A DNA stretch of 64,000 nt from Psilocybe azurescens (lineage: Eukaryota > Basidiomycota > Agaricomycetes > Agaricales > Agrocybaceae), in contig JAJIRX010000095.1 of assembly GCA_023853785.1 (NCBI GenBank), positions 1-64,000 on the forward strand, read 5' to 3'. How positions within the stretch are numbered: position 1 is the stretch's first letter; every line of letters starts with the position of its first letter. Below are positions 5,059 to 57,611 of this stretch, one piece after another. A program made the position numbers and the translations under genes. The notes beneath the pieces are model-generated. The model had not been told where the DNA came from. It ran no database searches and worked only from the letters and a program-made list of their open reading frames with translations.

Positions 5059-6856
5059 ACGATTCCACTCTGCTTGATCATTCCACAACTCTTCTTCATC
5101 ATCATCATCCTGGACAATCATACCAACATGAACCCGCATATCATTTGGATCCCAGGTTGAATATCTGGCATTGCTGGTATGAACTTGTGGTTCAAAACCC
5201 CGGTTTATCGTGGCATTCATAGTGCTTAAGGCACTTTGAGCCATCTTATCCCATAAATTAGCAAGAATAATAGAGTAATTTTGTGCATACAAACCTTTAG
5301 TGAATATGGTAACCAGATTCCTGAAGACCAATACGCAATGATAAAAATGATAAAGAAATTCAGGACCATAATGATTGCTTGATGGTATACGTTATTTTTG
5401 GGCCTGTTTTCTGGAACGCGTGGACTATTGAATGTAAGCATAGTTCTTGACAATAAGGAGTGAGCTTACTGGTTTTTCCCATATCACAATATCAGAGCAT
5501 TCAAGGGAAGCGCCACTGGCTATAAGATGACAATCTTTGGTGGATGTTGTCTAATACAAGTCAATACCAGGCTTTTGGATAAAACATTTGCACTCACGCA
5601 TATGGTCTGTATTTCTGTATTTTTACCAGCTTGCTTTAATATCTGTTTCGGTTCAGGAGAGGACAAAGAAAATGTGTATATTTTGCCATGATCACTTCCA
5701 CAGACCACAACTGACGATCCTTCAGCAAAAACACCATCTTTGATGCATCGTTTCTTTGTGAATATGGGAAAGCTATGTGAAGGTGATGAGTGTGGTAAAT
5801 GGTATAGATCAAACTCTTTTGCAAGATTCTCTATGAGAAGTAATTGCCCATCCAGGCTAACGTCAGCGTGGCCACTTCATAAGAGGTCAGCATTGACATA
5901 TGATATCAAAAGATCATGCTCACACTCCAGACTTCAAGACCTTCCGCCAGTCCTCCCTCCCAGACTCGACATTTCGACAAATCCTGCCAAAGTTGAAAGA
6001 ATAATAAATATGAATGTCTCATTAATTAGAGTATCGTCTTACATTTCCCCAGTTTCTAGAACAAAATTAAAAGCTTACGCCCGAGTCATAAAAGCGGACA
6101 GAGCTAGCTATGTAGGTATTTCCGTCGCTCTCCACATTGAAGGTCCAGAGCTGTAACATTGTCCCTATATCATCATAAGTCGCTGCCGCATTGTCTACAG
6201 AAAAAGATCTCACCATTTCTTCCGACTTTGTACAAGGTAACATTGCCATGGTGACTACTGATAGCCAAACGTGATGTTTGAATATCGTAGTCTACTGCTT
6301 CAACAGGATCGCTAGAAGCAAATACCCGTGTAGTGGCAATCTCAACCATCGCAGTCTTTGTTTCGAGTTAGTATATTTTCCCAAGTGTAGAGGCTAAATG
6401 CTTACATTCGTACGGTTCTGGCAGAAGATGATAAGAAAGCCACGCCCAGTTCCGAAAGCTAGGTGTTGCAAATCTTCCTTGACTTTACCCCCTAGCCAGA
6501 CCAAACATGTAATCTGGCCCCATCGTTGACCAGGGTCCTCAAGGACTTCTTTGCATTTTCTAGTCGAAACATCCCAAATACGAACTGTTTCATCATCACC
6601 TATAAATTTTGCATTAGCATGTATGCAATAACACGATACAACACGAGGGCATCTTACCACCGCTGGCTAGCAGCGCTCCATCATGACTGAATGATAAGCA
6701 GTTTATAGGCCCTTTAAGACCCGAAAACCGTGCATATTTGGTATAAACCTGCGTACTTGGTTAAATAACATTAGAAGAGAAGAGATTTTTACTCACATTG
6801 TTACGTGGGGCCTTCAAAAAGTGCTTGAAGCCTTTGAGCAAAAGAGTGATAAGCAT
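5035..6856 (-). CDS. WD40-repeat protein with C-terminal membrane anchor
   Basis: A probable scaffold protein with a beta-propeller and one C-terminal membrane helix. It starts at ATG 6,856 (MLITLLLKGFKHF). Clean splices join GPINCLSFSHDGALLASGG to DDETVRIWDVSTRKC, a canonical WD40 blade ending in WD, then GQITCLVWL and FGTGRGFL. Later exons give ASSDPVEAVDYD, LAISSHHGNVTLY, LDGQLLLIENLAKEFDLYHL and VVCGSDHGKIYTFSL. The penultimate exon carries a hydrophobic segment (MVLNFFIIFIIAYW, near 5,350), and the last exon is acidic (DDDDEEELW). This blade-plus-anchor layout is familiar from an expanded basidiomycete family of unknown role. The frame appears intact over at least eight exons. It is flanked by inverted repeats, so it may be cargo of an old element. 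Confidence 0.7.
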
Positions 6857-7125
6857 GAGTAGTACTGGTAATGAGAGCGATGGCGACTAACTTTGGCCAA
6901 TGGGCAGCATACTTATGCAAGGAGCGCCTATTGTGAATGTAACGCTAATTGTCTTGATGTCCATGACGACAATGTTGAGCGGACTGCTCCACCCCGCTTG
7001 ACCTGCTTGGATACCTACCCCATTTGGGAACGATATACGGAGTCACTATAGGCAAAAGAACAATAGCGAATATATGCTTATGAGGCTGTTTGAAAAATAC
7101 AAGGTAGCGAGGGTAGAACAAAGTA

Positions 7126-8362: not shown

Positions 8363-8455
8363 CGTGGCGAGAAGATGGGTTGTTGATCAAACGTTGATCG
8401 CACCGAAGTCGCACCCTATGTTTGGTTCTCCCTTTAAACCAAACACGCTCATCAC

Positions 8456-40951: not shown

Positions 40952-41654
40952 ATGACTACACAGACTGATTCAGATAAACAGACAAGTGCTTTGTATGTTA
41001 GGTCACTTCCAAGTTAAGATTATCGAACTAAATAGGTTTCTTGCTAGGCTGCCTGCTCATATCATCTTTCCCATTCGTGAGCTTCGTGGCTCAGAGTTAT
41101 CGGCATACAGGAGAGAGGCACGCATCCGCAGAACAATGAACCGCCTTCATATACGTATGTTCAAAAGCAGCCGATTTATCAAGAAGGGCCCTCGAGTTCG
41201 TCTCCAGGAGGCATTGACAATGCACTACATCGCACAAAATACTACCATCCGCGTGCCACGCCTCCTAGACGCTTACACCGTCAATGGTGTTTTTCATATC
41301 GTCCAAGAACGTATCGACGGACCTGTTCTTGAAGATGTATGGCGCAGTCTCTCTGCTGAAGAACAGCGTCGCTCTATGGAACAGTTAAAAGACTGTCTGG
41401 ATCAGCTACGCACGCTAAAGCCTCCTCATCCAGATCGCGTACAGGCAATTGACGGGTCAAGTCTTTTTAACCCTAGCATCGATGCGGATCCATGGGGCCC
41501 ATTCGATAATCATGACGCGTTCCACGAGTTCCGGTGCTACGACTTCCTCCGCACTGTCCCTGAAACTTATCCTCGTATACAGGAAGCTCTGTCAAAAGTT
41601 CATGGAAGGCAGTATAAGACTGTATTCTCCCATGGAGACCTTGGGCCTCACAAC
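40952..41654 (+). pseudogene. aminoglycoside phosphotransferase/choline kinase-like gene, 5' part, interrupted by KDZ element
   Basis: The N-lobe and start of the C-lobe of an APH-fold small-molecule kinase. Start at ATG 40,952; a 43 nt intron at 40,993-41,035 joins MTTQTDSDKQTSAL to FLARLPAHIIFPIR. Further on are FIKKGPRVRLQEALTMHYIA, IRVPRLLDAYTVNGVFHIVQ, ERIDGPVLEDVWRSLS and the catalytic loop HGDLGPHN (Brenner motif HGDxxxxN). The frame is then cut after the Asn codon by the transposon; as it stands it reads ten codons into the terminal repeat to a stop at 41,684. The 3' part lies at 55,554-55,764. The missing piece is nothing but the element, so this is a recent insertional knock-out. 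Confidence 0.85.
41648..41654 (+). repeat. left target site duplication (TCACAAC)
   Basis: TCACAAC directly precedes the element and recurs at 55,554-55,560 directly after it. It encodes the end of GPHN in the host kinase gene. KDZ relatives such as Zisupton give 8 bp duplications; only 7 bp match here. Confidence 0.85.
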
Positions 41655-41785
41655 CACATAGGGCAGCTACATTGTAGCGAGTGACATGGGCCGTAGAACG
41701 CACACAATGTATACGTGTGACACGGGGCCATAGAATTCTATGGAAACCAAGTACATTTTAGTGTGGTGGGAATTACTTACAAATG
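41655..41785 (+). repeat. left terminal inverted repeat of the KDZ element
   Basis: 131 bp, matching the reverse complement of 55,423-55,553 except one base (CCAAGTACA versus CCACGTACA). Homology ends abruptly after TTACAAATG. Confidence 0.92.
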
Positions 41786-42006
41786 AATGACTCAGAGCCG
41801 ACTGATACTTTACTTCACCTGTGGCTGTTCAAATTGTGAGGTCGGCTACGAAAATATCGGCCACATGCCGACCTAGATGAAATAAATTATTGTATTACTT
41901 CAGCTACAGAATTGGGGGGCTTCAGTTACGTATGTGGAGGCCAGCGAGTATCTTCTAAGCGTTGAGGCTGCAACTCGGTCCCGACATTTCTCGGCCAGCA
42001 TTCAGA

Positions 42007-43099
42007 TTAACTATCATCCGATAGTGCCATTAACTCTTTATCAAACTTCCCAATTGCATCGATAGTTCGATCATTGAAATTCTTGAAGGCTTTTTGAGCT
42101 CCATCACTTGCTCTAAGCTTCTCCCATTCTGCCATGTAAAGCCGATGGCTAGCGTCTTTGTAGGATATACCGAGGGTTTCACGAAGATAATTGACCTCAG
42201 TATGTATTTGTAGTAGCTCACGCTCGGTCAAATGCTATTATCCATAAATTAAATAGTGTTCAACATAAATAAAGTCATGCTTACAGGATCGGCAGGGACC
42301 AAAACTGTGTCACCGAGAATAACAAAATCCCGTCCAGTACTGTTTCCTGACTGAGGATTGAGTGAGTTTGGATTCTAAAGCGAGACAATGAAAACGAATG
42401 ATAAATGGTATGTAGGCAGCACAGAAGGGCGGCAGATTAAATCGGCCCCGATAACTGCAGCCGCCACACGATACCGAGTCAAATCAGCCTCAAATTATGT
42501 AGGTCAATATATAGCTATCGCATCATATTGATCTCTACAAGCTTTCAGAGACCTGATATTCAAACATAAAAAGAGCAGGAACAGATATCTGGGAAATCGG
42601 GGCCGATATGTTTACACGGCCACCGACTTCGGAGATAAATCGGGCCCGAGCTGTATGGCAGCGTCGCGGGGCCGACAATATGTCGGCACCGATGCAATCA
42701 GCTAGTCAGCCGTTCACAGCTGGAAGAATAGTTATGAGTGCAACGAAAGGTATTTACCCCACCAGGTTGAGTCTCCAGCCGTAGATGATCTTGTTGGTGC
42801 GCATTAATGAATTCTTTTCTGGTGGCAGAAACCAGGAATTCGGGTACGTAAATCTTCTCATTATCGGGCCCGATCAACTGCATGAACCCTGCAGGAATGC
42901 TGCCATACTCCCGAGAAGAAACAGCGTCCGGAGTAGCGATTGGCTCGGCATCAATGTGTAAAGTCGGCTGAATATCTGGTCGGTGCCGATCATTAAATAC
43001 CGCCGATGTATGATGGTCGATGCGAGATGACGGCGTACCTACGGATCTGAACATATCATGAGAGTCTGTCTGAATGTCGTGTACATGGCTTTCTTGCAT
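42007..43099 (-). CDS. KDZ cargo gene 1, uncharacterised
   Basis: Function unknown. Exon 1 (43,099 to about 42,757) reads MQESHVHDIQTDSHDMFRSV…, with IPAGFMQLIGPDNEKIYVPE. Exon 2 (about 42,376-42,287) reads NPQSGNSTGRDFVILGDTVL and VPADP. Exon 3 (42,236-42,007) reads HLTERELLQIHTEVNYLRET, then LGISYKDASHRLYMAEWEKL, ending MALSDDS. The second intron has clean GTAAGC..AATAG ends. The first is long (~380 nt) and holds five TCGG-NN-CCGA palindromes, so a missed exon is possible. The third exon resembles a helical domain seen in other basidiomycete transposon-linked genes. Confidence 0.55.
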
Positions 43100-43314
43100 C
43101 GTTGATAGTGATATAATATGTTGGAGGAGATCAGAATAGAGATTGCAACTGGATTAGGGAGTTATTTGTCACTGTTTATATCACATGACTGTTGATTTTG
43201 CCAGCACCTTACATTCTGGCAGCTTTACCGTCTGCTACAATCTTCATCTGCCGACTCAGCGCCCGAGAAACAATACACACTCAAAAATCTCAACTACATT
43301 CGAGTTCATCATTA

Positions 43315-45923
43315 TGTCTAATACTATCCATATTCCGTCTGCAACCGACCTCATCAAAGCCCTTCGTGATGTCGATGATAGTATCCGCCGTGGATTGGCC
43401 GATGGCAAAGTTCGCGAGTGTAATAAAGGAGAAGAAACATGAATTGGTGAGAAATCATACGCTGTTACAAGTAAAATTCACTGAAGCGACCACTCAGCGA
43501 GCGATATTCGAACTTAATTGTAAAACCGGTCCCGAAGTGGCGCATTTGCAGGAAGTCTTCGACCAGCCGATATTTTTCTGGAGCTTTTTGAAAGCGTGGA
43601 AAGAGGTAAAGCAAGCTGGACGCACTCCCGAATTTCTGAGACAGCACATACAAAACATGGAGGCTTTTGACAAGATGGTAACGGGGCCGATGAGCCGCAT
43701 AGCCACTGCAGTAGCAACGCCGGGCATGATATCGCAACCGGCCACACACTCAGTCGTTCAAGACGTGCCTTTGAGAGCTGGTAACACATCAAACAGCGAC
43801 GCAATGCGTAGAATACCATCAGCCCAGGATCCCCAACAACCAATGGATGAGCAGATTACCAGACGCGTCCGTCGTCGGCCGTCACGGGTTCGAACTGAAT
43901 CGCCCGAATACGAAGTGAGCATCGCGCATGATGCTCAACGCCCACAAATTGAGGCCACACGCGAACTATATGGATGGCCGAAAGGATTGTTGCCGAAGAA
44001 GAGGATGCCACGGACGCCCGAACACCAGCGCGAAGAGCATCGGGGCCGCGTAGTCGGGACCGATCGGCGCCCGTCATCGACAACGCAACTCAAGTTCAGA
44101 ATACAGTGAGCATCGTGAAGCACCACGCGAAGATTCTTCCGAAATAGACGAGCTTGTTGAAATTCAACCAAAGCCGCTACAGGGAAAGCTGAACCCGATA
44201 CCGTGCGATCGGTGCCGACGAGCAAACGCCGACTGCTACGATCGGGTTCAAGGACGTGGAGCATGTTTTGGTGCAATCGACAAAAGGTGAAATGTAGTCT
44301 CGGAATTAGAGCAATCAGCCACCGCGAATAGGACGAAAGTCGTCGACATCGAGGAAGCCGAAATCTCGGCGCATCATTGAAGTATCGGATGAACCATCGG
44401 CTGAGGAGGAAGAGTATGATGAAGAAGACGAAGATGTACAGATGGATATTTTGGAAATCCCTGCTACTGCAGTCATGGCAGAATCATCGAGGTCAGCGTG
44501 GACACGGGCAGGGACGTCGGCTCGGCATATTCGGGAGGTATCGGCACCGTCTGACGAACATTATACGGGCCGCTTTTCAGCTATTGAAAAGGGGAAAATC
44601 GTGGTACGTGTCCTGTTTATCTTTTGATTTTTCATATTTTACAATAACCAATAGACCTGCCCAAAGCCACCGACAATGAAGAGCTGGCGGCTCGTGTGGA
44701 CATATTGTCGACAAAGTTGGACTCGGTCACTGCAGATGCCGCCTCAGCGTTATCAATGGCATACGATTGCAATCTAGCTTGTGTTGAGTTGGAGAAGTCG
44801 GCAGCGCACAGACCGAATGCCGGTCTCGGTCACCGTGTCACTCAGCTGGAGGGCAAAATGAACGACATTTTGGGGAAATTGGATATGTTTGAAACACAAT
44901 TTTCAGACATTTCCACTATTCTCCGCAAGTTAAGTGCAAATGGTATGCTCATTTTGAATCAAGTTGCATCGGGGGCCGATCCAGTCGGTAGAGGACGACC
45001 TCATCGGCAACGATATGGAAGTGGAAAAGGACGCAGAATTGGTATCCGATGGTCCATATGAAGCAAAGAATGTCGATGCCAATTCCATCACGCAGACGGT
45101 GGAATTAAGTGCCAACATCGGGAGAAGCGTAGCAGGCGGTGAATCGGTACCGACAATAGTGCCGATAGTTGAACCAGCGCCGACAAGACGATTCGGATTC
45201 CGGCCCCTATGTTCCGATATCACCGCCGATGGTAGAACAGCGCGGGAGGATGATTCCGTTTCCGGCCCCGATCCCTCAAACTCAATGATACGCGTTAACG
45301 ACGCACAGGAAGAACAACGAGAACTTATCTCGTCGGTTCGTAAAGATTTTCCTTCCGTGCAATTGATTCTGCCAACACCCAATAACTCGCAGGAGCAGGC
45401 CACATACAGTGCCCACATTATTGTAGCCGGTACTCATCAAGCTGCTTCAACGGTGCCAGGAAACGCCACTTCAGCTGAGTTGGCTTCATATACCACACAC
45501 ACTTCTCCCACTTTGCAAGCACTCGAAAGTCTGCCGAACTTGGTTGAAACATCAACGCATTTGGGACCGATTACTTTCGGTCCCGATGATGTCAATGTCG
45601 GGTCCGAGGTCGGTAATGGCGTTGAATTGTCGGTTGCCGGCGGCTCCGAGTCGGTCGATATCGGTAGAGAGTCGGCAGATATCGGTCCCGAACCAACTTT
45701 GTCGGCTGCGCCTCCTCTTACTCTTGTTGCAACGCAGTCTCTTCTTACTCCGCCTCTACTATCACAGAATGATACAAATGACCGTCGCCGTTCACCACGT
45801 CTCGCATCACCCCGCCCTTCGCCAATGGTGTCCCATAGTCCGACACCTGGACGACCAGGGAAACATCCACGCACTGACATTTCGCCTGCTACAGAGAAAA
45901 GCAAAAGACCTCGTCAGGGATAG
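43315..45923 (+). CDS. KDZ cargo gene 2, Zn-cluster-like protein with coiled coil (frame disrupted)
   Basis: Starts with MSNTIHIPSATDLIKALRDV at 43,315. One extra base near 43,419 separates it from VIKEKKHELVRNHTLLQVKF, EVFDQPIFFWSFLKAWKEVK and a basic region. At 44,204-44,296 a cysteine motif CDRCRRANADC…C..CNRQKVKC resembles basidiomycete Zn-binding clusters, but a base is missing inside it (TTTTGGTGC). An acidic stretch (EEEEYDEEDEDVQMDI), an intron at about 44,602-44,654, a coiled coil (LEGKMNDILGKLDMFETQFS) and a long disordered tail rich in IGP, VGS and GPD steps follow. Another frame change lies near 44,975 in a TCGGGGCCGA copy. The C-terminus is basic (GKHPRTDISPATEKSKRPRQ). Possibly DNA-binding. 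It is either decayed or carries indel errors. Confidence 0.5.
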
Positions 45924-46045
45924 TTCCAGATCTCAGTACATATCATTGTTGGGTCAGATGTAGATTTTTTTGTAATGCCTTTCACTGCTCTGATGTTCAA
46001 TAAATTTGATTCTATTTTGTTCGTGATAATATAAGGAAGTGCAGT

Positions 46046-48430
46046 TTATCTGTGCCTTGTACTGCGTCTAACTGGTATCCCAGCCGTTAATGTGGCTGAT
46101 GTTGATCCTACATCGCCGGCCGCTTTCTTTTGTTTTCCTTTCTTTTTATGTGATGTAATAGGAACAATATGGTAACTTTGTGGTTCTGTGTCGACTTCTA
46201 TCGGGACCGATGTCGGGGCCGCCTGCGTAGAGATCGGTGTCGGCATGTGCGTCGGGACCGGTGTAGGGCTCTGCATCCGCACCGATGTAGTGATCTGCGT
46301 CGGGGCCGATGTGTGGATCTGCGTCGGGATCGGTGTAGGGAGCTGCGTCGGGACCGGTGTAGGGATCTGCGTCGGGACCGGTGTAAGGATTGGGATTGGG
46401 ACCGCTGATGGGATCTCGCGGCACCCGGTGTAGAGACTGGTGTCGGTGTTGCCCTTGGAGTGGGCATAGTTGTACCAAGTAGCCTTGGATCAATATTACT
46501 GTTGTTAATGACGTTGGTTGCTCCTCGTGTGGATAAACTTGAATCCAATAGGTACATAGGTATACCGTCTGTGGGACCATTCACTGGGAATTGGTGTTCA
46601 ACTCCAGATGGAAAAATTGACATTACTTCTTGCTGAGTGGCATAGACATCCTCTCTGAAGATTAAATTTGGGATGTCTTGCTGGATGCTTTCCATATCTT
46701 CATGAATTGCATCCTAATTATTATAAGATTGTAAGATAGTGGTTCGGTATCAGCAATAATCGGGACCGATACACTTACAATCTGCCTGACATCATGTCTC
46801 GTGCCCGATATCAATGCTCGAAGTTGGTTGATATTCTTCAATGTTTGGCGTGATGTGCATATTGGTCAGTGCTAAAGTATTTTCCACTTGATCCGACTCA
46901 ATTTGGCATCGACTTGTTGTTTTATTTCGGCGTTTATTTCTCGCTTGACGTCGGCCCCGATCGGCATCGGCAACGGTGTCGGGATATTCTGAGGGAAGCG
47001 GGACCCGTCTTTATGTTTAATAGACCGAAAGCGAAAAGTGTCTTGTGGTTGATATAATTGCTGTCTTTTGATCAAGTGCCCAAAAAGCATTGTATGCTGT
47101 CTTTATGGAGATTCCGGGGTTTGTAAATATCATGTTGGGAGGTAAATATTTCCGATTCGATAAAAGGTCGCTGAAGCGTAGGATATTTGAGTGTATGGAA
47201 CTTTCTCTGTTTTACCACCAGTGGCAAGGTCTATCTATAATTCAGGCAAATTGGACTCGAGGCATGCCTGAACTAAACTCACAGTAATGATTATTCACGT
47301 ACAGACTGAAAGCTTCTTCCCAGTCACTTTTTGTCCAATCTTTATCTGGCAAAGGGATAGGTATGATTGGGAAACCATTACTAGTTTTCCCAATGTAAAT
47401 ATTGGCTTCTTTGCTGTTGCTCGGTTAACCGTGAATGCTAAGTGAGGGTTTTGCTTGAGATTTTGCAAGCCCGTCATATAATCCAATATGTTTTGTTTCA
47501 TTCGGTCGACGTCAGCCCGATATGTACTCATGAATGAAGGGGCGGGAACACCCATCAAGCTGGCAATTTGTTCGTATCTAACGCATAATCAGCTGTGTTT
47601 TTCAATGAGTTGCTGGAATATGCCGATCCAACAATTATGTCGGCCCGAGAAAACTTCGGCTGTTATCTGCAATCACGTACCCATCGACTGCGACCTTGCC
47701 ATCTGCTAATGGGAAGCAAACAAAAACCACACTGGTCATCCCCATCTCTTTATATTGGTCATTCATTGTTTGATCAATCCGTCTGACATGATATTTTTGG
47801 CCAAACTGTGATATAATTGTTAGGTCGGCCTCGGACACGGGGCCGTATGACCGACCTTGCTTGTGTGTGCTCGTCATACCCCGCATTGAACACCTTTCTA
47901 CTTCATTGTCAATGTCCTTACGTTCATTCTCAGTCATCTTGTCCCAGATATTCTTCATGGCGACTGTCCTGTGGCCAAACCAACCCGAGGTCTCTGCTGA
48001 AGCCTCTTCAAGACCCATAATATTTGCGATTTCCGCCCAAATTTTTGATTGATGATTGTACCAGAGTACATCTGATCTTTTTTAGGCTGAAAGTGGTTGG
48101 ATTTGCGAGCCATTCCTCGTTCAATTCGCCAATTGTTTGAGCACCAGGTGATGATCTCCTGAATTATCTTCAGATACACGCTCTTCGAAGTTGGCTACAT
48201 ATCACCTTACCTTTGTCCAAAGGCGACTTTCGGTGTCATCCTTAGCCCTTTTCCCTCGACTGGCCCAGTAATTGAATATTGCGACCAGTATGTGGTTTGT
48301 TAAGATGAATAGGCGTTCTTTGACTGTCCTTGCTTTCACAAAAGTTTCTTTGAAAGGCAGAATTTGCTGTAGTTCTTTTGACACTGAACATCTTCGCTTT
48401 CCGTTTCTTGTTTTGTAATACTATGGTTGT
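46046..48430 (-). CDS. KDZ cargo gene 3, uncharacterised with GPDA-repeat tail
   Basis: Function unknown. The N-terminal part (about 48,430-48,200) contains ERLFILTNHILVAIFNYWAS. Next are IIQEIITWCSNNWRIERGMA and YSGTIINQKFG (48,179-48,060), then GLEEASAETSGWFGHRTVAM and KNIWDKMTENERKDI (48,018-47,640), and further exons around 47,558-47,295. The first three blocks resemble a long gene family often seen in mushroom genomes. The C-terminal exon (about 46,580-46,150) encodes a run of GPDADPYT-like units, each made by a TCGG-NN-CCGA-related copy. The stop used is near 46,046 in the frame with TSATLTAGIPVRRSTRHR. Exon borders are only partly clear, and a frame change occurs near the start. Confidence 0.5.
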
Positions 48431-48620
48431 GGTCATATTGTTCAGTGAAAATACCTGTAAAAATGGCACAATGCAAGATAAAGAAATGTGGATGTGATTA
48501 GGAATGGACCTGAAACATTCACAGACTGTGAGTTGCGACAACATGCCTCATGGAAGCCTCATGTTCATTTAGTGCCCAGCCCCGTGATGACCACATACAT
48601 CTCGCTTTTCGCCTTCAACC

Positions 48621-51600
48621 ATGAACTCTTCCAGTGGACCAGCTAACAAAAGACAAAGAAAGTCAAAACACTTGGTTCAAGGAAGTGTGGAAGCCTCTCA
48701 GGCGGTTACCCACCTCTCCGATGTCTTCAGCGGTCCCAAATCACAGCGAAGAGTGTTAGTGCCGCTTGTGACAACTATCGCAGAAGATCCAACGTTGAGT
48801 GACCAAACTAATCCAAGAGAACATATGGTTAACCACAATATGTTAAACGATGATGGAGTGTCAACGGAGCCCTTGAATACGACCCGTCAAAAGAAAAACA
48901 AGGTAACCGTTTATTAAATGAAGTACAACATTTTTCAAACAGTACTATGCAGACGCAGCAAGAATATATGAGAGAATGGGTAGATAGAATAGAAGACTTA
49001 CTTCAAGCATCACTTGCTCGAGAGACCTGGCCAGCCGACAAGCAGCACTGCCAATCTTGTCCAGCTGGCTCCTGGGCCATATGGAGATGTATAGATTGCA
49101 CACTTGCAGAGCCACTTTGTCGCAAATGTATGCGAAATTCGCATCGGGTTGCACCTTTCCATCGAATTGAATGCTGGGCACAAACGCACTTCCGCAGAGC
49201 CGAGTTATGGGAAGTCGGTTGTTACATTCTTGTCCCACATTGTGCAGGGATTGCTATATGTGAATCACTACTGTTCCAGATTAAATATTTGGAAACTTTA
49301 CAAGAATATCCAGACCGGCTAGAACAGGAAAAATTAGATACATTGTATGGCCCAGCCGGTTCGGGGCCGACTTTCACTAGTTCGGGGCCGAGATTTACAT
49401 ATACGGGGCCGACAGATACTAGCTCGGGGCCGACAAACGCTCGCTCGGGGCCGACAGACTCTAGGTCGGGGGCCGGCGAAAAGTTCGGCATCGGCTAACT
49501 ACACGGTCCCAAAACAAACGGCATTTGGTGTACAATCTCAAGCGTATCCAATGGACGTCAACAATGAAGAAATAAAGGATGGATATTCTTTCCATTTCTT
49601 GCACCATCGCAACATAGATGAAGAAGATGATCCTGACAGCTCAATTGACAAAGACATGACCGAAGACGATGAAGGTGGTGATCCTGAAGCGGATGTTGAA
49701 GGATTCAGTGAATACCTAGTCATTGACGATTTGACCAACGAGCTGACTGGTGTCGGGGCCGATCATATGCCTGAATACCGGGCTTACAGCACGGCTGAAC
49801 CCGGGGCCGATTGTACTCCTGAACACGGGGCCGAGTACATGGTGAGCATCGGGGCCGACACATTTTCGGCATACACGGCTGATCATATTGACATTCAGAA
49901 TGAACTTAATACCGATAGTGTCCACCCAAGCTTCCCAGTGGCTGATGGTTTAAATAATACCTATGTCAGGATTTTACACACCAACGGTATTCATCATATG
50001 GCCATGGTAACTTGTCAATGCCGAGGGGAGAATTCGGTCCCGATGGACCTGGTTGCCTGCCGGCTCCTCCCTGCCAGCTTTAAAAGATACGGACCCTCTT
50101 CTCTGTTCAACTCATGGATCATTTTCGTCTTTGTAATTTGGAGCTGAAGGCGACAGCCTATCAGTTTTATCAACTTATCCGCAGAATGACAACACCAATC
50201 GGTCGGACCGAAATTGTCAATGTTTATCATGAGTTTCGCCGTATTTCTCGGCTCTGGAGGTGGCTCAAGAAATTAAGGTGGGCTGGGTATGGCCATAAAG
50301 CAGAAGATCCTCGCAACCCACCAGCTGGTTCATTGTCTTTGTATTGCCCTACATGCCCTCAGCCTGGTATAAACTTACCCACTGATTGGAAGGATGATCC
50401 GAATCGGTTAGTACAATTTACATCTTATAAAATTTTGTTTCTAACCTGCTATCAATACAGTACAGTATACAAGCGTATGTTACCGTGACAGATGGCAATT
50501 TCAAAGCCGACCATGTTCGGCAAAAATATAACAATGATATCTGGCTGATGGATGGGTCTGGAATGGCACCCAATAAGGATGATTATCTAACTTTTTGGAA
50601 TCTGCAATAGATCGACTGACGGTATGTGACGTCCGGGGCCGATACTCGGCCGACACAATTTATCTGATGGCTGAGTTTCAGAAAGCACCATGTGAAAATA
50701 CGTTCAGAGCAATTACAAATGCACTACTGTCAACCAAAGCATGTGATCGCACAGGAAAGGTAGCCTTTGCATGCGCTCGGCATAGCTGCTTCAGCGCCCG
50801 AATTCCTTGGCGGACTTGTTCAAAGGTGAACAACAAAAAACATTGATTATGCATTACTGCAGGCCATCAAAACCACACATGTAGAGCCCGAACAAGGGCT
50901 ATTTCTCATCTATGACATCGTCTGTACCTGGATTGTCTATCTCTATGACCGAATTGGCCACTTGCTCCCTGCCGGTATTATTATTGATCAGGCGATTGAT
51001 TTATTCCATGTTCATGGCCACAAAGACGTATGTTTCTTTCGTTTTGCCACAACTTTTGTCCCCGGTGCTGCAGTAGTTGCTGGTCAAATTCTTGAATCAC
51101 TATGGTCAAGTCTCAATGTAATCTCGTCTTCGGTCCGGACAGCAAGTCTCGCACACAGGGAAGAAGTACTCGACAATCACGCTACAGATTCCAACTACAA
51201 AAAATGCTCGGAATTACAGACGTTCTTTGCAACAGATATACCGATGCAATTATTATGGTGGGGCGGGCCGACTCTTATTTCCTTGAATTTTCAGGGGATA
51301 TTGCACAGGCGACACTTAATGAATGGGAAGATGAAATTCAGAGTGTTGAGGCAATGCGATTAGCTGACATCAAAAGAATGGACATTTATGGCGCCCGGCT
51401 GCCGACATCGTCGACCGATGATACGGGTGAGGAACACGGCACCGATACCGGTCCCGATATCAATTCCGGTACAGCAGCCGAGATGTGGCTTCGATTAGCT
51501 TTGCTAATTGAAGAAAAGCAGTAAGTGGAGTCACACTTTTATTTTTGCTCACAATGTGATCACTTTCATGTCAGAATTGAAATTCAAGATAAAGTTCGTC

Positions 51601-52965
51601 GGTTAGGCTCCAGCGCCTCGGGACCAAGACCAACAAATAGTTATGCAACTGCGTCAGCGTTGACTATGATGCTTGCAGAACTTAAAACACGACAACAGCA
51701 TGCTGGGGTGCACGATATTCAATGTGGGCGGCCAAGTATGCCACTCAACAGTGAGACCGAATATCGGCGACATTGAAGAAAATCCCGATATTCCTGGTGG
51801 ACCGGCCATGCAAGACCGTTCTGTTCCTGAAGATCACAGCCCTCCAACTCCAACAATCCTGAGTGTTGAACGCCAAATACTTTCATTACCATCCAATCAC
51901 AATGTTTCAGCAGGCTACGAAGGATTAGAAATGGAATTGAGAAAACAGCAAGCACGCAATCATATAACGAGGATTCGGGACATTGTGGCCGATATCTCGT
52001 TTCTATATCGATACGTGGTGAAGAGAGGGACTCGAACCAGCATTCGGTCTAATGGTCAAAAGAAAGTGAAATCTCTGAATCACGATAAAGTATTGCATGC
52101 CCGCATATATTCGGCATGTCGGTCCCGCCTTGTCGCACTCGGCTGTGATCAAGAATTCCTTTCAATTTTCTGTCTACTTACACGCAATGACCTCAAGGCA
52201 AGTACAGCTATATGGAAACCAAACTTAATGGGATCTTCCACCTTGGAGTTGTCGTGGATTTGGAGAACTGGCCGATGGTATTTGTTCGGGAACATGACCG
52301 ATGCCGATGCCGATCATCGCATCGGGCCCGACACATTACAGCGATTTCAACTTGAATGTACGTAACTTATTCTTATTATGTTTCTAGAGTAACTTTCAAC
52401 CGATTTAACAGTCAATCGAGTCCACTGGCTTCGTGCTCGGGCCCAGAAAAATAGGTGGCACGAAGAAGTTGTCTTAGTGGTGTATGAAATGCAATGGACT
52501 GTTAGATATTTTATTCATCGTCGAGAAGAGTGGGCCCAAGCCGCTCAAATGGAGGATATCAATTCGGGCCCGAGAGCCTCACGCCCTATCGGCAAAGTAC
52601 TATGTGGTATAAATATGCGGTCATAGCCGATCATGCCTTTAAAAATAGCAACGACTTATATTTATCCCCGTTTATTTAGTTATGTAATTAGGCACTACTA
52701 TCAGATAGATTATCTTTGCACACCGCCCCTTGAAAACATTCCATCATGGCCAATAAAGAACTTTCAATCTACAACCCACTCACTTCTGTGGCTGGTGCTC
52801 GTTATTCGAACCATTTCCGACATACAACAACTCGTGTACTATGCTGAGTCTAGATTTCGGGCCGCACTGCTTGCGATTTCTGAGTCGACAAAAGAACAAC
52901 AGGCGTGGAAACAAAAGTTTCTTTGTGCTGAAGTTGTATGTACTGGATCTATTTCAGAAATTTGA
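48621..52965 (+). CDS. KDZ transposase with CxC2 cysteine cluster
   Basis: The predicted transposase of the element. It starts at MNSSSGPANKRQRKSKH (48,621), with an intron at about 48,903-48,943. The CxC2-like cluster spans 49,050-49,250 (CQSCP, WRCIDCTLAEPLCRKCMRNS, HRVAPFHRIE). A linker of SGPT repeats follows, then VTCQCRG and LMDHFRLCNLELKATAYQFY. Catalytic-core motifs are TVTDGNFKADH (near 50,490), ACARHSCF, IYDIVCTW (near 50,910), LPAGIIIDQAIDLFHVHGHK and DVCFFRF, and GQILESLWS (near 51,090) with RTASLAHREEVLDNHATDSN. The C-terminal helical part has SWIWRTGRWYLFG and RARAQKNRWHEEVVLVVYEM. Frame breaks of one base occur at 49,468-49,472 (G5), 50,082-50,085 (A4), about 50,802, 50,835-50,840 (A6) and 51,199-51,204 (A6). 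As written it cannot make full-length protein. Confidence 0.85.
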
Positions 52966-53075
52966 AGCTTACCCGATTATAATATAGGAGTTGATTTTAT
53001 TTTTATTGGCCAAGCATCAGCGCTCGGCCTTCCCATAATCATTCCTATCATCGTTCGGTCATTGGCGGCTTGATT

Positions 53076-55124
53076 CTTGGCGTCCCCCTTGATCAATATC
53101 CACTCAAACTGTCGAACGATCTTTTGCGGTTATTGGATGCCGGTGTGGATAAGGACAGCCCGGTTCGGCTGGTGGACAATTACCTACATGATTGGTGGAA
53201 TAGTGGAGCTGAAATTTCCATGGATTACACTTTGAAGCCAATTGTCATCGCGGCCGCTTTGCGAATGCATGCAGGTAGCGGCTTGCAGAAAATCGTAACC
53301 GACTCGTTGCCTAAACCATCGGGCATGTCGGTCCCGACTATATCATGTGGCCGATGCAACAAATACCTCAATCTTGCCATTGGACTCCGTGAAGACCTCA
53401 TGACAATTTCATCATCTATTCAAGCATCACAGACCAAAGCCGATGCCGACGCCCGAATTTAGCATGCGTCGGGCAGCCGGGTTTCATCTGGTGCATGAAG
53501 CAGTTGTTCTGAAAGAACAGCAAACAGGAGATCCCGTTCGATCGACCGAAGAATCGGCTAAACGATCGGGCGTCGGGTCCGTACAGCCGAGCAACAAGTA
53601 AGACTTATCCCGATAGCTTGGATGATGTTTTAATCACTCGACGATCATGGCGTATGGCCATGAATGCTGCGGATCAATTATCTACGCTCAAGTTGCTCCC
53701 AACTTCATCGCAGAAGTGGACTTGGGGGCGCTGAACTTACGCCAACCGACCTGATGGCCCTGGCAGCGGATCCGTCGGCACAAAAGCTTCCTCACTCTGG
53801 ATATTCACATTCACTGCCTGAAGGTCGTATTCATAGAGAGTGGTCTTCCGACCCTACACATCCAACAGAGTTGTCAGTTGCGTCGGCTATCGGGGCCGAA
53901 ACAGCCGACTTGGCGGCCATCCCTTCCATCCCTGATGTTATCGGTTTATTGCCCACAATTCGCCACACTACTTGGCAGAATCACGGACTCCATAGCTCAA
54001 GTCAATCGTACAGTTCGCTCACATTCAGTGCCGATTCAGACAGCCACGTCGGTACCCGACGGGCGGAAGTCTTGTCGGCACCGGTGGCGCAGAAACTTTA
54101 TCGGCCCCCGATGATGGAACCCACGGCGGTGCCGATTGACCATATTAGCAGAATCGGGATTCAATCGACATCGGTCCCGAATCTTGACTTTGTGGCTTCT
54201 GCCTCAGACGCTGCCGCAGTCTGGAATACATCATCTGGCTCCAGCAATAATAGTCTTAATGTCCATCTCCGCGTCTCACCCACAACGATGCCATCAAATC
54301 ACCCGAAGTCGCTCCATGGCCGCACAGGCAGCTGCAGTTTGGTTGCGCGACTCATCCGATAATGAGTCGTCCACCAATGAATCTGAAGAAGCATCTCAAG
54401 TGGATGCTGCTGATTTTGCAGCTGCCTGGGCGATTTCTTCTGATGATAATCTCGCTTCTGACGAAGCCGATCCAGACAATGCCCGTTTTGTTGAGTCGAA
54501 TACTCCGGCCAATTCACTTGAAAATCTGCACATTGGCAGATTTATAGGTCCCTCGGCATCGGCTGCTATGTGGTCCGATTCATCCGATAGCGGCGCCGAA
54601 GACGTTTAGGGACCGATTGCTTATCCCGGCAATACTGATTCTGTCGAGCTCAATGATCCAGCTCATTCATTTGAACATCCGCACATTGACAGACATGTAA
54701 GTGCTTCGGAAGCAGCTGCTGTGTGGTCCGATTCATCTGTTAGCGGCGCTGAAGATGTTTCGGGACCGGTGGCCGGCCAACAATCAATTAGTATATGTAC
54801 TGGCTCCATTACCTTGCCAATCGGACCTGCTGAAGTTGCGGATGTTTGGTATTCCTCGGACGAAGATGAATCTCTTGTTTCACAATTAATCGCGCCAGCC
54901 GACCGGCCTGTGTCTCCAGCCGAATCTTCAATGAGTGTGGTTTATCAAGGAACTAATGTCGATACTGTTACTCCCACTCGAATCACACTTTCTCGTCCGT
55001 TCTCCCCCCTCGTTTTTTTGGTTTTGTCGACGACACTTGGCTTCCAGCCGATGATTATGCCGATGGTTACAGCGGTGAAGAACAAGATGCAGATGATGAG
55101 GAAGGTGGTGAACTGACGTTTTAA
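53076..55124 (+). CDS. acidic repeat reading frame 3' of the transposase
   Basis: Either a transposase extension or a separate fourth cargo gene. The front part has LDAGVDKDSPVRLVDNYLHD and GRCNKYLNLAIGLREDLMTI. The rest is low-complexity and acidic. A motif of the form A-A-x-V-W-x-x-S-S-D occurs six times (AAAVWNTSSG, AAAVWLRDSSD, FAAAWAISSDD, SAAMWSDSSD, AAAVWSDSSV, VADVWYSSDED) from 54,200 to 54,860. The frame contains a TAG at 54,607-54,609 where the parallel repeat has TCG. The end is DEEGGELTF, stop at 55,122-55,124. Frame switches near 53,460-53,740 are unresolved. Confidence 0.4.
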
Positions 55125-55422
55125 ATGATTTGATGGAGCCATATATTGTCATTTTGATAGATTTGAATTGCATCTCTGTTTTTCTGTTTGCTTCATATGC
55201 TGATATTGTCTGAGGCCGAAGTTCTCCTACCCGACCATCCTGCCGAGAAATGCATAACGGGTTTGAATTTCAGGCGGTTGACATTATATTCACTCCCAAG
55301 CAAGTCATAGATCATAGCTGAATGTATCCTCTACTGAGCAAACTACTTTGGTCAGCTTGTGGCGGATATCTTCGCCGCCGACCCTACCAGCATAGAATTA
55401 CACAGCATCTACCGATTTGCTA

Positions 55423-55553
55423 CATTTGTAAGTAATTCCCACCACACTAAAATGTACGTGGTTTCCATAGAATTCTATGGCCCCGTGTCACACGTATACA
55501 TTGTGTGCGTTCTACGGCCCATGTCACTCGCTACAATGTAGCTGCCCTATGTG
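55423..55553 (-). repeat. right terminal inverted repeat of the KDZ element
   Basis: 131 bp partner of 41,655-41,785. Reading outward it begins CATTTGTAAGTAATTCCC, which includes a consensus 5' splice site (GTAAGT), and ends …CTACAATGTAGCTGCCCTATGTG. Confidence 0.92.
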
Positions 55554-55764
55554 TCACAACGTTCTCTGGAAGAATGGCCACATCTTCGTCATTGACTGGG
55601 AGAGATCGGGGTGGTTCCCAGAGTATTGGGACTATACTAGGGTGCATATGGCGCGTGGCTATGTCGAGGACTGGTGGAAGATGTTTGAGGAAACGGTGAG
55701 TCGTCGGTACGACGATGAGATGGAACTCTCCCTTCAATATTCGGGATACTTTTATCGAAGTTAG
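55554..55764 (+). pseudogene. aminoglycoside phosphotransferase/choline kinase-like gene, 3' part
   Basis: Begins with the second TCACAAC copy, then VLWKNGHIFVIDWERSGWFP and EYWDYTRVHMARGYVEDWWK, ending SLQYSGYFYRS and a stop at 55,762-55,764. IDWE is the metal-binding Asp motif that follows the HGDxxxxN loop in APH kinases. Counting one TCACAAC, the frame continues exactly from GPHN at 41,654. Its own upstream DNA is the transposon end, so it has no start codon of its own. Confidence 0.85.
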
Positions 55765-55908: not shown

Positions 55909-57611
55909 GGGCACAGGAAAAAGGCCGTGGCACGTCCGTGCTATGTCTGTGAACTATAATTCGAGATCCGTGCAATGTTATAGTGATCACACTGACTTCT
56001 GTGGGAGATCCGTGCAATCATATAATCCTAGCTGAAGGATGTGTAGAGATTGTATCCGGTCTCCATTGGTTTTGTAGTACCGGAAATATTGAAAAACAGC
56101 CAATTTGATGAGCTGTGGCTTGCCTACAAGTCGGACCCTAGATGTCCAACATTACAATGTATGACAGTAGGTTCAAAGTAGCAGTAATATTTGTGAATAA
56201 TAAACTGGACACAGTACTATACTCTCTACTTTGGAATAGGTCTTGGCATAGGACATGGTCGTACAAGTATATTAGAAGGAGGCTTTGACTTGGGAAAGTT
56301 GACATAATTAATTCCCGGCTTAACGAGTTAGATGTGATCAGCCACAAAAAGTGAGAAAGTTTAAGAAATAATCCACTCACCTCAAGCTCACTATCACTCG
56401 CTATATCAGCACGGACTCCACCGTTCCACTCCTCTGGGAAGTCGCCATAAGGACTCCAATTATTCTGATGGTTTCCTATGCCTAGACCCCATTGTTCGTT
56501 TCCAGCTACCCCGGCACAAATGGAATTCTGTATGACAAGGAATAGTAATGGATACCGGTTATTGATGTGAAAGTACTGAGACAGATAAAAAATTGTGTTG
56601 ATTTTTAAAGTGACTTTCAAGTCTTGACGGAGGGGTTTAAATGCAGCATGATGAAACACCCCTCTTTTGTTCCAGTTAGCAATCACTGCCCTTCATAAAT
56701 TATAACTGCGGATGGGCAGCGGGCGCTGTTATAGAGCGCACAATATTGACTGTGGTACGGTTAATTGTCCTATTCCGACTTCCATATCAAGCCAATATTA
56801 AGCATCGCTCAATTTTAGAATATTGGCTTGGCAATACTGCTAGATCCTTACCCTGTGGAACACAACATTCTTCCATGCAGGTCCGTGTCATGACCACATA
56901 TTTCCGTGCTATGTCTGTGCAGGTCCGTGATGTGTCCGTGCAGATCCGTGCTAATTTAACACAGCATATGTAAAGTCTGTGCAGGTCTGTGCAGGTCTGT
57001 GCTGAGCCGTGCCGGAAATTTTAGCAGTTCGTGCTCAAGTCTGTGCAAGGTGAGTAAGTCCGTGCATGTAAATGTACTCGAAATTTTATTTTAAAAAATA
57101 CTCGGTAGGCAGTAGGAAGGATTAGGACTGACTAGTATTGGTATTAGTAGCCGTGACTTGGGTGTGATATTGGTCTGTCATCATGAATTGAGGGCAGTTA
57201 TAAACATGTTCATTGGTATATTATATGTAGTAACACTTAATTTATCTGAATATATATGCAACAAGGAAAGATTTTATATTGATTTGATGATGCTTATCTG
57301 TCTACTACAGTTTGTGCGCCGATTTAGCGCTCATTCATGAAGGTGGTCGGAATATTCCGTTGCCTTCGGGATTGTCCGATGGAGCAATTGTAAGTAAAAG
57401 TCCTCAGATAACACGCTTCAAAGCATCATTTGTCATTCCCAGGTAAGCTTTAATAGAATGTAACCACATAATTACTACTGTAAGTCTCTTGAAAGTACAT
57501 ATGTTTAGTTATTTAAGAGCATCACTTGGTGAGGTCCGTGCAAGTCCGTGCAGGTCCGTGAAACAGGTGCACAGACGTGGCACGGACGCCACGGCCTTTT
57601 CTCTTTGCCCT
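55909..57611. mobile_element. 1.7 kb hAT-like non-autonomous element
   Basis: An 8 bp duplication TCATTTGG (55,901-55,908; 57,612-57,619) flanks ends that are inverted copies: left GGGCACAGGAAAAAGGCCGT, right rc AGGGCAAAGAGAAAAGGCCG, continuing GTGGC. G(A/G)TCCGTGCA-type heptamers or octamers recur within ~150 bp of both ends and around 56,880-57,070. Eight-base duplications and multiple subterminal repeats are usual for hAT elements. There is no transposase; a minus-strand frame at 56,138-56,686 (with NNWSPYGDFPEEWNGGV) is unrecognised. Confidence 0.65.

Follow-up and report, generated by a model that had tools for sequence, protein, structure and literature searches.

Few DNA transposons are as common in mushrooms as KDZ elements, and to our knowledge the ways in which they tell their own DNA from that of the host and escape silencing have been little explored outside TET/JBP carriers. 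Among described systems close to the element reported here, the Kyakuja TET+ elements of the mushroom-forming fungus Laccaria bicolor have a KDZ transposase, 7 bp target-site duplications, 5′-CA..TG-3′ ends and TET/JBP genes but no inverted repeats, as far as the available text of their description goes; the same source gives Zisupton 8 bp duplications (PMC12730594). In Cryptococcus, KDZ1, KDZ2 and KDZ3 are about 9–11 kb long, with inverted repeats of 241, 139 and 169 bp, respectively, a CxC1 cluster, duplications of 8 bp or 4–8 bp and insertion into a gene, and the available text makes no mention of an accessory zinc-cluster gene or a motif array (PMC12810828). The inverted-repeat motifs of Marasmius KDZ elements are stated to have been characterized (PMC8290104), and the accessible part of a report on Pleurotus ostreatus describes intact KDZ transposons with a CxC2 cluster ahead, the gene interruption there being caused by a non-KDZ insert (PMC7641404).

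The locus analysed here lies in a stretch of 64,000 bp from Psilocybe azurescens (contig JAJIRX010000095.1, positions 1 to 64,000), called the window throughout. A KDZ-type DNA transposon of 13,899 bp (41,655–55,553) separates the two halves of a kinase-like gene, and the element has long inverted repeats together with duplications and end bases of the Kyakuja type. It resembles Kyakuja TET+ in its transposase, duplications, termini and mushroom-forming host and differs from it in its 131 bp repeats and in having no TET/JBP match; with the Cryptococcus elements it shares long inverted repeats and insertion into a gene, but not duplication length nor, probably, cluster type, and its CxC2-like cluster may be a point in common with the Pleurotus elements. 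The original prediction saw value in a complete element for defining KDZ boundaries and duplication length. That value has been overtaken: ends and duplications are already published (PMC12730594, PMC12810828), so KDZ boundaries are not new here. The insertion, a clear but ordinary gene disruption, is of lesser weight than the presence of a protein and its candidate site on one element, which makes the question of self-recognition directly testable.

The element and the interrupted gene

Comparison of the left end (41,655–41,785, forward strand) with the right end (55,423–55,553, reverse strand) gave terminal inverted repeats of 131 nt with a single mismatch. TCACAAC flanks the element on both sides (41,648–41,654 and 55,554–55,560); the bases next to both copies differ, which limits the duplication to 7 bp rather than 8. 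Repeats and duplication are as originally predicted. The termini read CACATAGGG...CCCTATGTG, of the CA..TG type, and 36 of the 37 other located ends also start with CA, the single exception (C136:99072) starting with GA. In the assembly (70.4 Mb, 937 contigs), the 131 bp end had at least 40 matches, scored among 118 candidates. The search for further copies with the same ends, proposed as a check on the element, was successful: an exact 7 bp duplication, different in sequence from pair to pair, was found in all seven facing end pairs with both flanks sequenced (the window and six others), where the chance of a match is 6e-5 per pair. This count covers facing ends only, the remaining ends being unpaired, and the copy on C781 stands outside it on account of a contig end; two other end combinations on C136 gave no duplication match, but those ends do not face each other.

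Inside the element, the KDZ transposase core (PF18758; 50,488–51,195, forward strand) scored 74.4 bits against a cut-off of 26.6, a profile match that supports the predicted KDZ identity. A CxC2-like cysteine cluster (49,959–50,197, forward strand) is split over two frames, reaching 26.3 bits in one (cut-off 27) with the remainder of the domain matching in another. By duplication length (7 bp in every scorable pair, rather than the 8 bp of Zisupton) and terminal bases, the element is closest to Kyakuja, although the absence of inverted repeats described for two Laccaria Kyakuja families is not shared. A six-frame Pfam scan of the element detected no TET/JBP domain; the rest of the assembly yielded 15 matches, 11 of them above cut-off. 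KDZ cores are abundant in this assembly, with at least 170 matches when 150 of 256 candidates were scored.

The left part of the interrupted gene (40,995–41,654, forward strand) runs from the start codon (ATG at 40,995) to HGDLGPHN, including the left TCACAAC, and is 98% identical to the homologue P0001; the right part (55,561–55,764, forward strand), from VLWKNGHIFVIDWE to the stop codon (TAG at 55,762–55,764), is 97% identical. P0001 is a single protein of 287 aa that spans both parts with no gap and is continuous from HGDLGPHN to VLWKNGHIF across the insertion point, and the two halves (660 + 201 nt) come to 287 codons, exactly its length, in keeping with the claim of one gene in one frame. 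The predicted uninterrupted homologue was therefore found as a protein, encoded on a 1,648 bp contig; as DNA the empty site was not seen, and an uninterrupted allele sought in the same assembly was not found. That the empty site is known as protein alone leaves some room for halves drawn from different genes, or for a rearrangement in place of a simple insertion. We regard this as exceedingly improbable given the gap-free P0001, which refutes a two-source origin at the protein level, and given that the left half has no further match in the assembly and the right half only weak ones.

Taken singly, the halves score 22 and 16 bits against Pfam APH (PF01636), under the curated cut-off of 23.2. 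The assignment to the APH family is supported by the aligned homologues, in which P0001 and eight other full-length relatives carry the HGD...N loop and the IDWE motif in a single protein; the named relatives belong to Agaricales, including Gymnopilus, Crassisporium, Hebeloma and Psilocybe. The reading frame of the left half meets a stop after nine codons of inverted repeat. The insertion truncates the gene between the HGD catalytic loop and the IDWE motif, as the predicted knock-out would have it. Neither half is decayed, which suggests a recent, if undated, insertion, a reading that agrees with the KDZ transposase, the matching ends, the 7 bp duplications and the continuous homologue. All three outcomes named beforehand as counting against the interpretation came out the other way: the ends are shared by other copies, both halves derive from a single gene, and there is a homologue with no interruption. 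We are close to certain that a KDZ-superfamily transposon was inserted by its transposase into an APH-fold gene, duplicating 7 bp and cutting the product short ahead of its metal-binding motif. A separate repeat starts shortly after the end of the interrupted gene (55,925–56,353), with at least 15 more matches in the assembly at 95–99% identity over most of the stretch.

Other copies and the accessory gene

Whole copies of the element are present on C529 (13,869 bp) and C33 (13,877 bp); in alignments with the window copy, 76 of 13,848 and 95 of 13,850 bases differ, respectively. The family also has members on C447 and C781, each with an insert of foreign DNA. Among the window element (41,655–55,553), C529 and C33, 63 of 79 small indels lie no more than 4 nt from a CG, compared with 39% of positions, which reflects either sequencing error linked to methylation or a genuine bias in mutation. 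Because indels cluster at CpG, the transposase frames cannot safely be taken as broken. A second family (C480, C415 and C236 whole; C755, C519 and C226 partial) has an inverted repeat about 90% identical, and past the ends blastn aligns none of its interior with that of the window element, tblastx adding further short matches. Its whole members C415, C236 and C480 (L058, L059 and L056–L057) are 5.1, 7.4 and 10.4 kb long, with the 131 bp inverted repeat and 7 bp duplications. C326 has about 296 bp of its ends in common. Another end (L033, C136:118945–119395) is embedded in a relative from the family of the window element: its flank matches positions 6828–7088 and 8406–8447 of the element, a case of nesting in a copy that is internally deleted or rearranged.

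Upstream of the transposase, the element contains an accessory gene of several exons (approximately 43,314–45,923, forward strand, with provisional exon limits) that includes a zinc-cluster-like segment. A coiled-coil-like exon is predicted near 44,648–45,061 from reading of the sequence. In the window copy, which has copy-specific indels, no one frame reads through the six-cysteine cluster, CX2CX6CX9CX2CX6C (44,204–44,295, forward strand); in C33, a reading of 406 aa contains it entire. We surveyed 11 sequences, namely the window copy, four long copies and the six of 17 small fetches that cover the region. Seven have the cluster open in one frame and ten show all six cysteine codons; it is not open in the window copy, C529, C447 and C781, and C529 has one cysteine codon disrupted.

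The cysteine order of Zn2Cys6 proteins, CX2CX6CX5-12CX2CX6-8C, is matched in those seven copies and in all four copies examined from sister families. Pfam Zn_clus (PF00172) exceeds its cut-off of 21 in three of four short slices, the fourth, a sister slice, reaching 19.2; the whole 406-aa reading scores 15.8, under the cut-off. Matches to PDB structures were weak (E 0.25 or worse) and aligned the two halves of the cluster in swapped order. In Zn2Cys6 clusters the basic segment normally comes first, whereas here the basic RQKVKC segment comes second. A protein search returned only two relatives, both from Psilocybe cyanescens: four of the six cysteines are retained in the P0044 model, where they surround a predicted intron, and the model of P0045 passes over the cluster segment.

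Within the assembly, relatives of the accessory gene (33–58% identity) were found on 13 other contigs, on at least nine of which a KDZ core lies 2.5–10 kb away in the same orientation. Four of these sister copies were fetched, C714 and C323 from one family (97–99% identical) and C440 and C19 from another (91–93%). The six-cysteine cluster is intact in all four, although the accessory gene is just 33–44% identical.

A palindrome confined to these elements

The window element contains 29 copies of the palindrome TCGGNNCCGA, against 0.1 in dinucleotide-preserving shuffles, and the remaining 50,101 bases of the window contain none. Pairs of CGG and CCG are enriched at a spacer of two bases (54 versus 1.9 expected) and less so at three (13 versus 2.2), with no enrichment at spacers of 0, 1 or 4. 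Across 5,376 combinations of word and spacer (256 words, 21 spacers), TCGG with a 2-base spacer was the sole outstanding palindrome, at 29 versus 1.4 expected, the next-best combinations reaching 5–7. There are also 280 TCGG/CCGA half-sites, whose density, about 5 per kb outside, becomes about 20 per kb on crossing either end into the element. Palindromes are distributed from end to end, in coding as well as non-coding DNA, with no concentration at the ends.

This pattern holds for other copies. Seven of them had 33 sites in 11.4 kb within the inverted repeats and none in 10.5 kb beyond; foreign DNA nested in two copies (7,829 and 5,465 bp), 37 outside flanks (11.1 kb) and 22 control loci (73,750 bases) likewise had none. 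Assembly-wide, there are 1,296 sites, compared with 654 for the same pattern read backwards. In the second family we counted 7, 10 and 6 palindromes in C480, C415 and C236, and 1, 4 and 4 in 4 kb pieces of C755, C519 and C226; C326 has one site in 4 kb. The sister copies C714, C323, C440 and C19 have 10, 7, 7 and 2. In C714 and C440 no palindrome outranks TCGG-N2, which is fifth in C323, after words from tandem repeats, and falls outside the top six in C19. A dense, element-specific motif of the kind expected for VANC-like self-recognition is present.

Zn2Cys6 proteins typically bind CGG inverted repeats as dimers, with fixed spacers. Since a cluster gene occurs here together with a palindrome that is dense and constant in its spacing, the two are natural partners as protein and site, like VANC and its motif. 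We propose that a Zn2Cys6-like protein encoded by the element, probably acting as a dimer, would recognize the CGG-N2-CCG palindrome scattered through the element, and that this recognition may distinguish element DNA from host DNA. Its most likely role would be to keep the element expressed or demethylated, as VANC does for VANDAL, or to assemble it for transposition. Taken as a whole (a KDZ insertion whose own zinc protein reads the element's palindromes as marks of self, with binding inferred), this account has in our estimation an even chance of being right. More tentatively, and at rather less than even odds, we can envisage a clade of fungal KDZ transposons with its own address system, in which a swapped-order Zn2Cys6 protein reads CGG-N2-CCG, selection maintains the sites element-wide, including in coding DNA, and family members are protected or activated, among them non-autonomous elements that share the inverted repeats; such a system would be a fungal counterpart of VANC/VANDAL of independent origin.

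An ordinary KDZ insertion, with palindromes that either remain from the amplification of short repeats or arose by compositional accident and a cysteine protein of unrelated function, seems to us unlikely, though it deserves serious consideration. Two short tandem arrays do contain the motif, one of 24 bp units (46,223–46,433) and one of 21 bp units within coding sequence on the transposase side (49,359–49,471), but 23 of the 29 palindromes lie outside them, with flanks unrelated to one another (mean identity 0.26), and neither the shuffles nor the isolation of a single word and spacing fits a compositional accident. In the second family the palindromes are mostly within 175 bp tandem repeats, so these counts are amplified and were given little weight. 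Conservation speaks against amplification or accident: in the alignable parts of two sister families, CGG-N2-CCG was kept in 11 of 16 cases (small, non-independent counts), more often than in matched windows with a CpG in each half (10 of 94) or in windows of any kind (1,984 of 8,641). C19 keeps none of three palindromes, and half-sites are conserved no more than neutral expectation (30 of 65, P 0.14). In favour of amplification or accident, palindrome CpGs mutate as fast as others in the three young copies (37.5 versus 33.8 per 1,000), so mutational protection of these CpGs is unsupported. A comparison whose outcome was written down beforehand, partly on other contigs and on 800 bp stretches only, gave a mixed result, with CGG-N2-CCG occurring twice with the accessory gene and twice without; full sites numbered 1 versus 0, and the half-site share of CpG was 0.30, 0.28, 0.12 and 0.23 with the gene versus 0.16, 0.16, 0.14 and 0.03 without.

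It is also conceivable, but decidedly improbable, that the palindromes are bound by something other than the accessory protein, whether a host factor (for example, a silencing zinc-cluster protein of the host), the transposase or its CxC2 cluster. Host Zn2Cys6 factors recognize CGG inverted repeats, and transposase sites are often located at element ends, which gives such binders some plausibility; the sites here are spread element-wide and are not clustered at the ends. Eight sampled KDZ loci, all from contigs where the accessory gene gave no hit, contained no full site in 17.8 kb (four of the loci being 800 bp each), although transposases are present there; one of the eight, C854, has two CGG-N2-CCG among six pairs at other spacers.

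Comparison with VANDAL and VANC

Recognition of the palindrome by the accessory protein, the reading we favour, would have a parallel in plants. Among the titles and abstract openings of the literature consulted, we found no KDZ element with a zinc-cluster gene or a motif array, an absence that is unproven at that depth. In the available text on the VANDAL elements of Arabidopsis, a short, element-specific motif is dense within the element, partly tandem and rare elsewhere, as here, and the element encodes a protein that reads its own motif, which in the window element would be the role of the accessory protein, by inference (PMC5735166). The two systems differ in that VANDAL elements are of the Mutator type, their motif (YAGTATTAY) is mainly non-coding and in one orientation and its binding has been shown, whereas the motif of the window element is a palindrome and occurs in coding DNA too.
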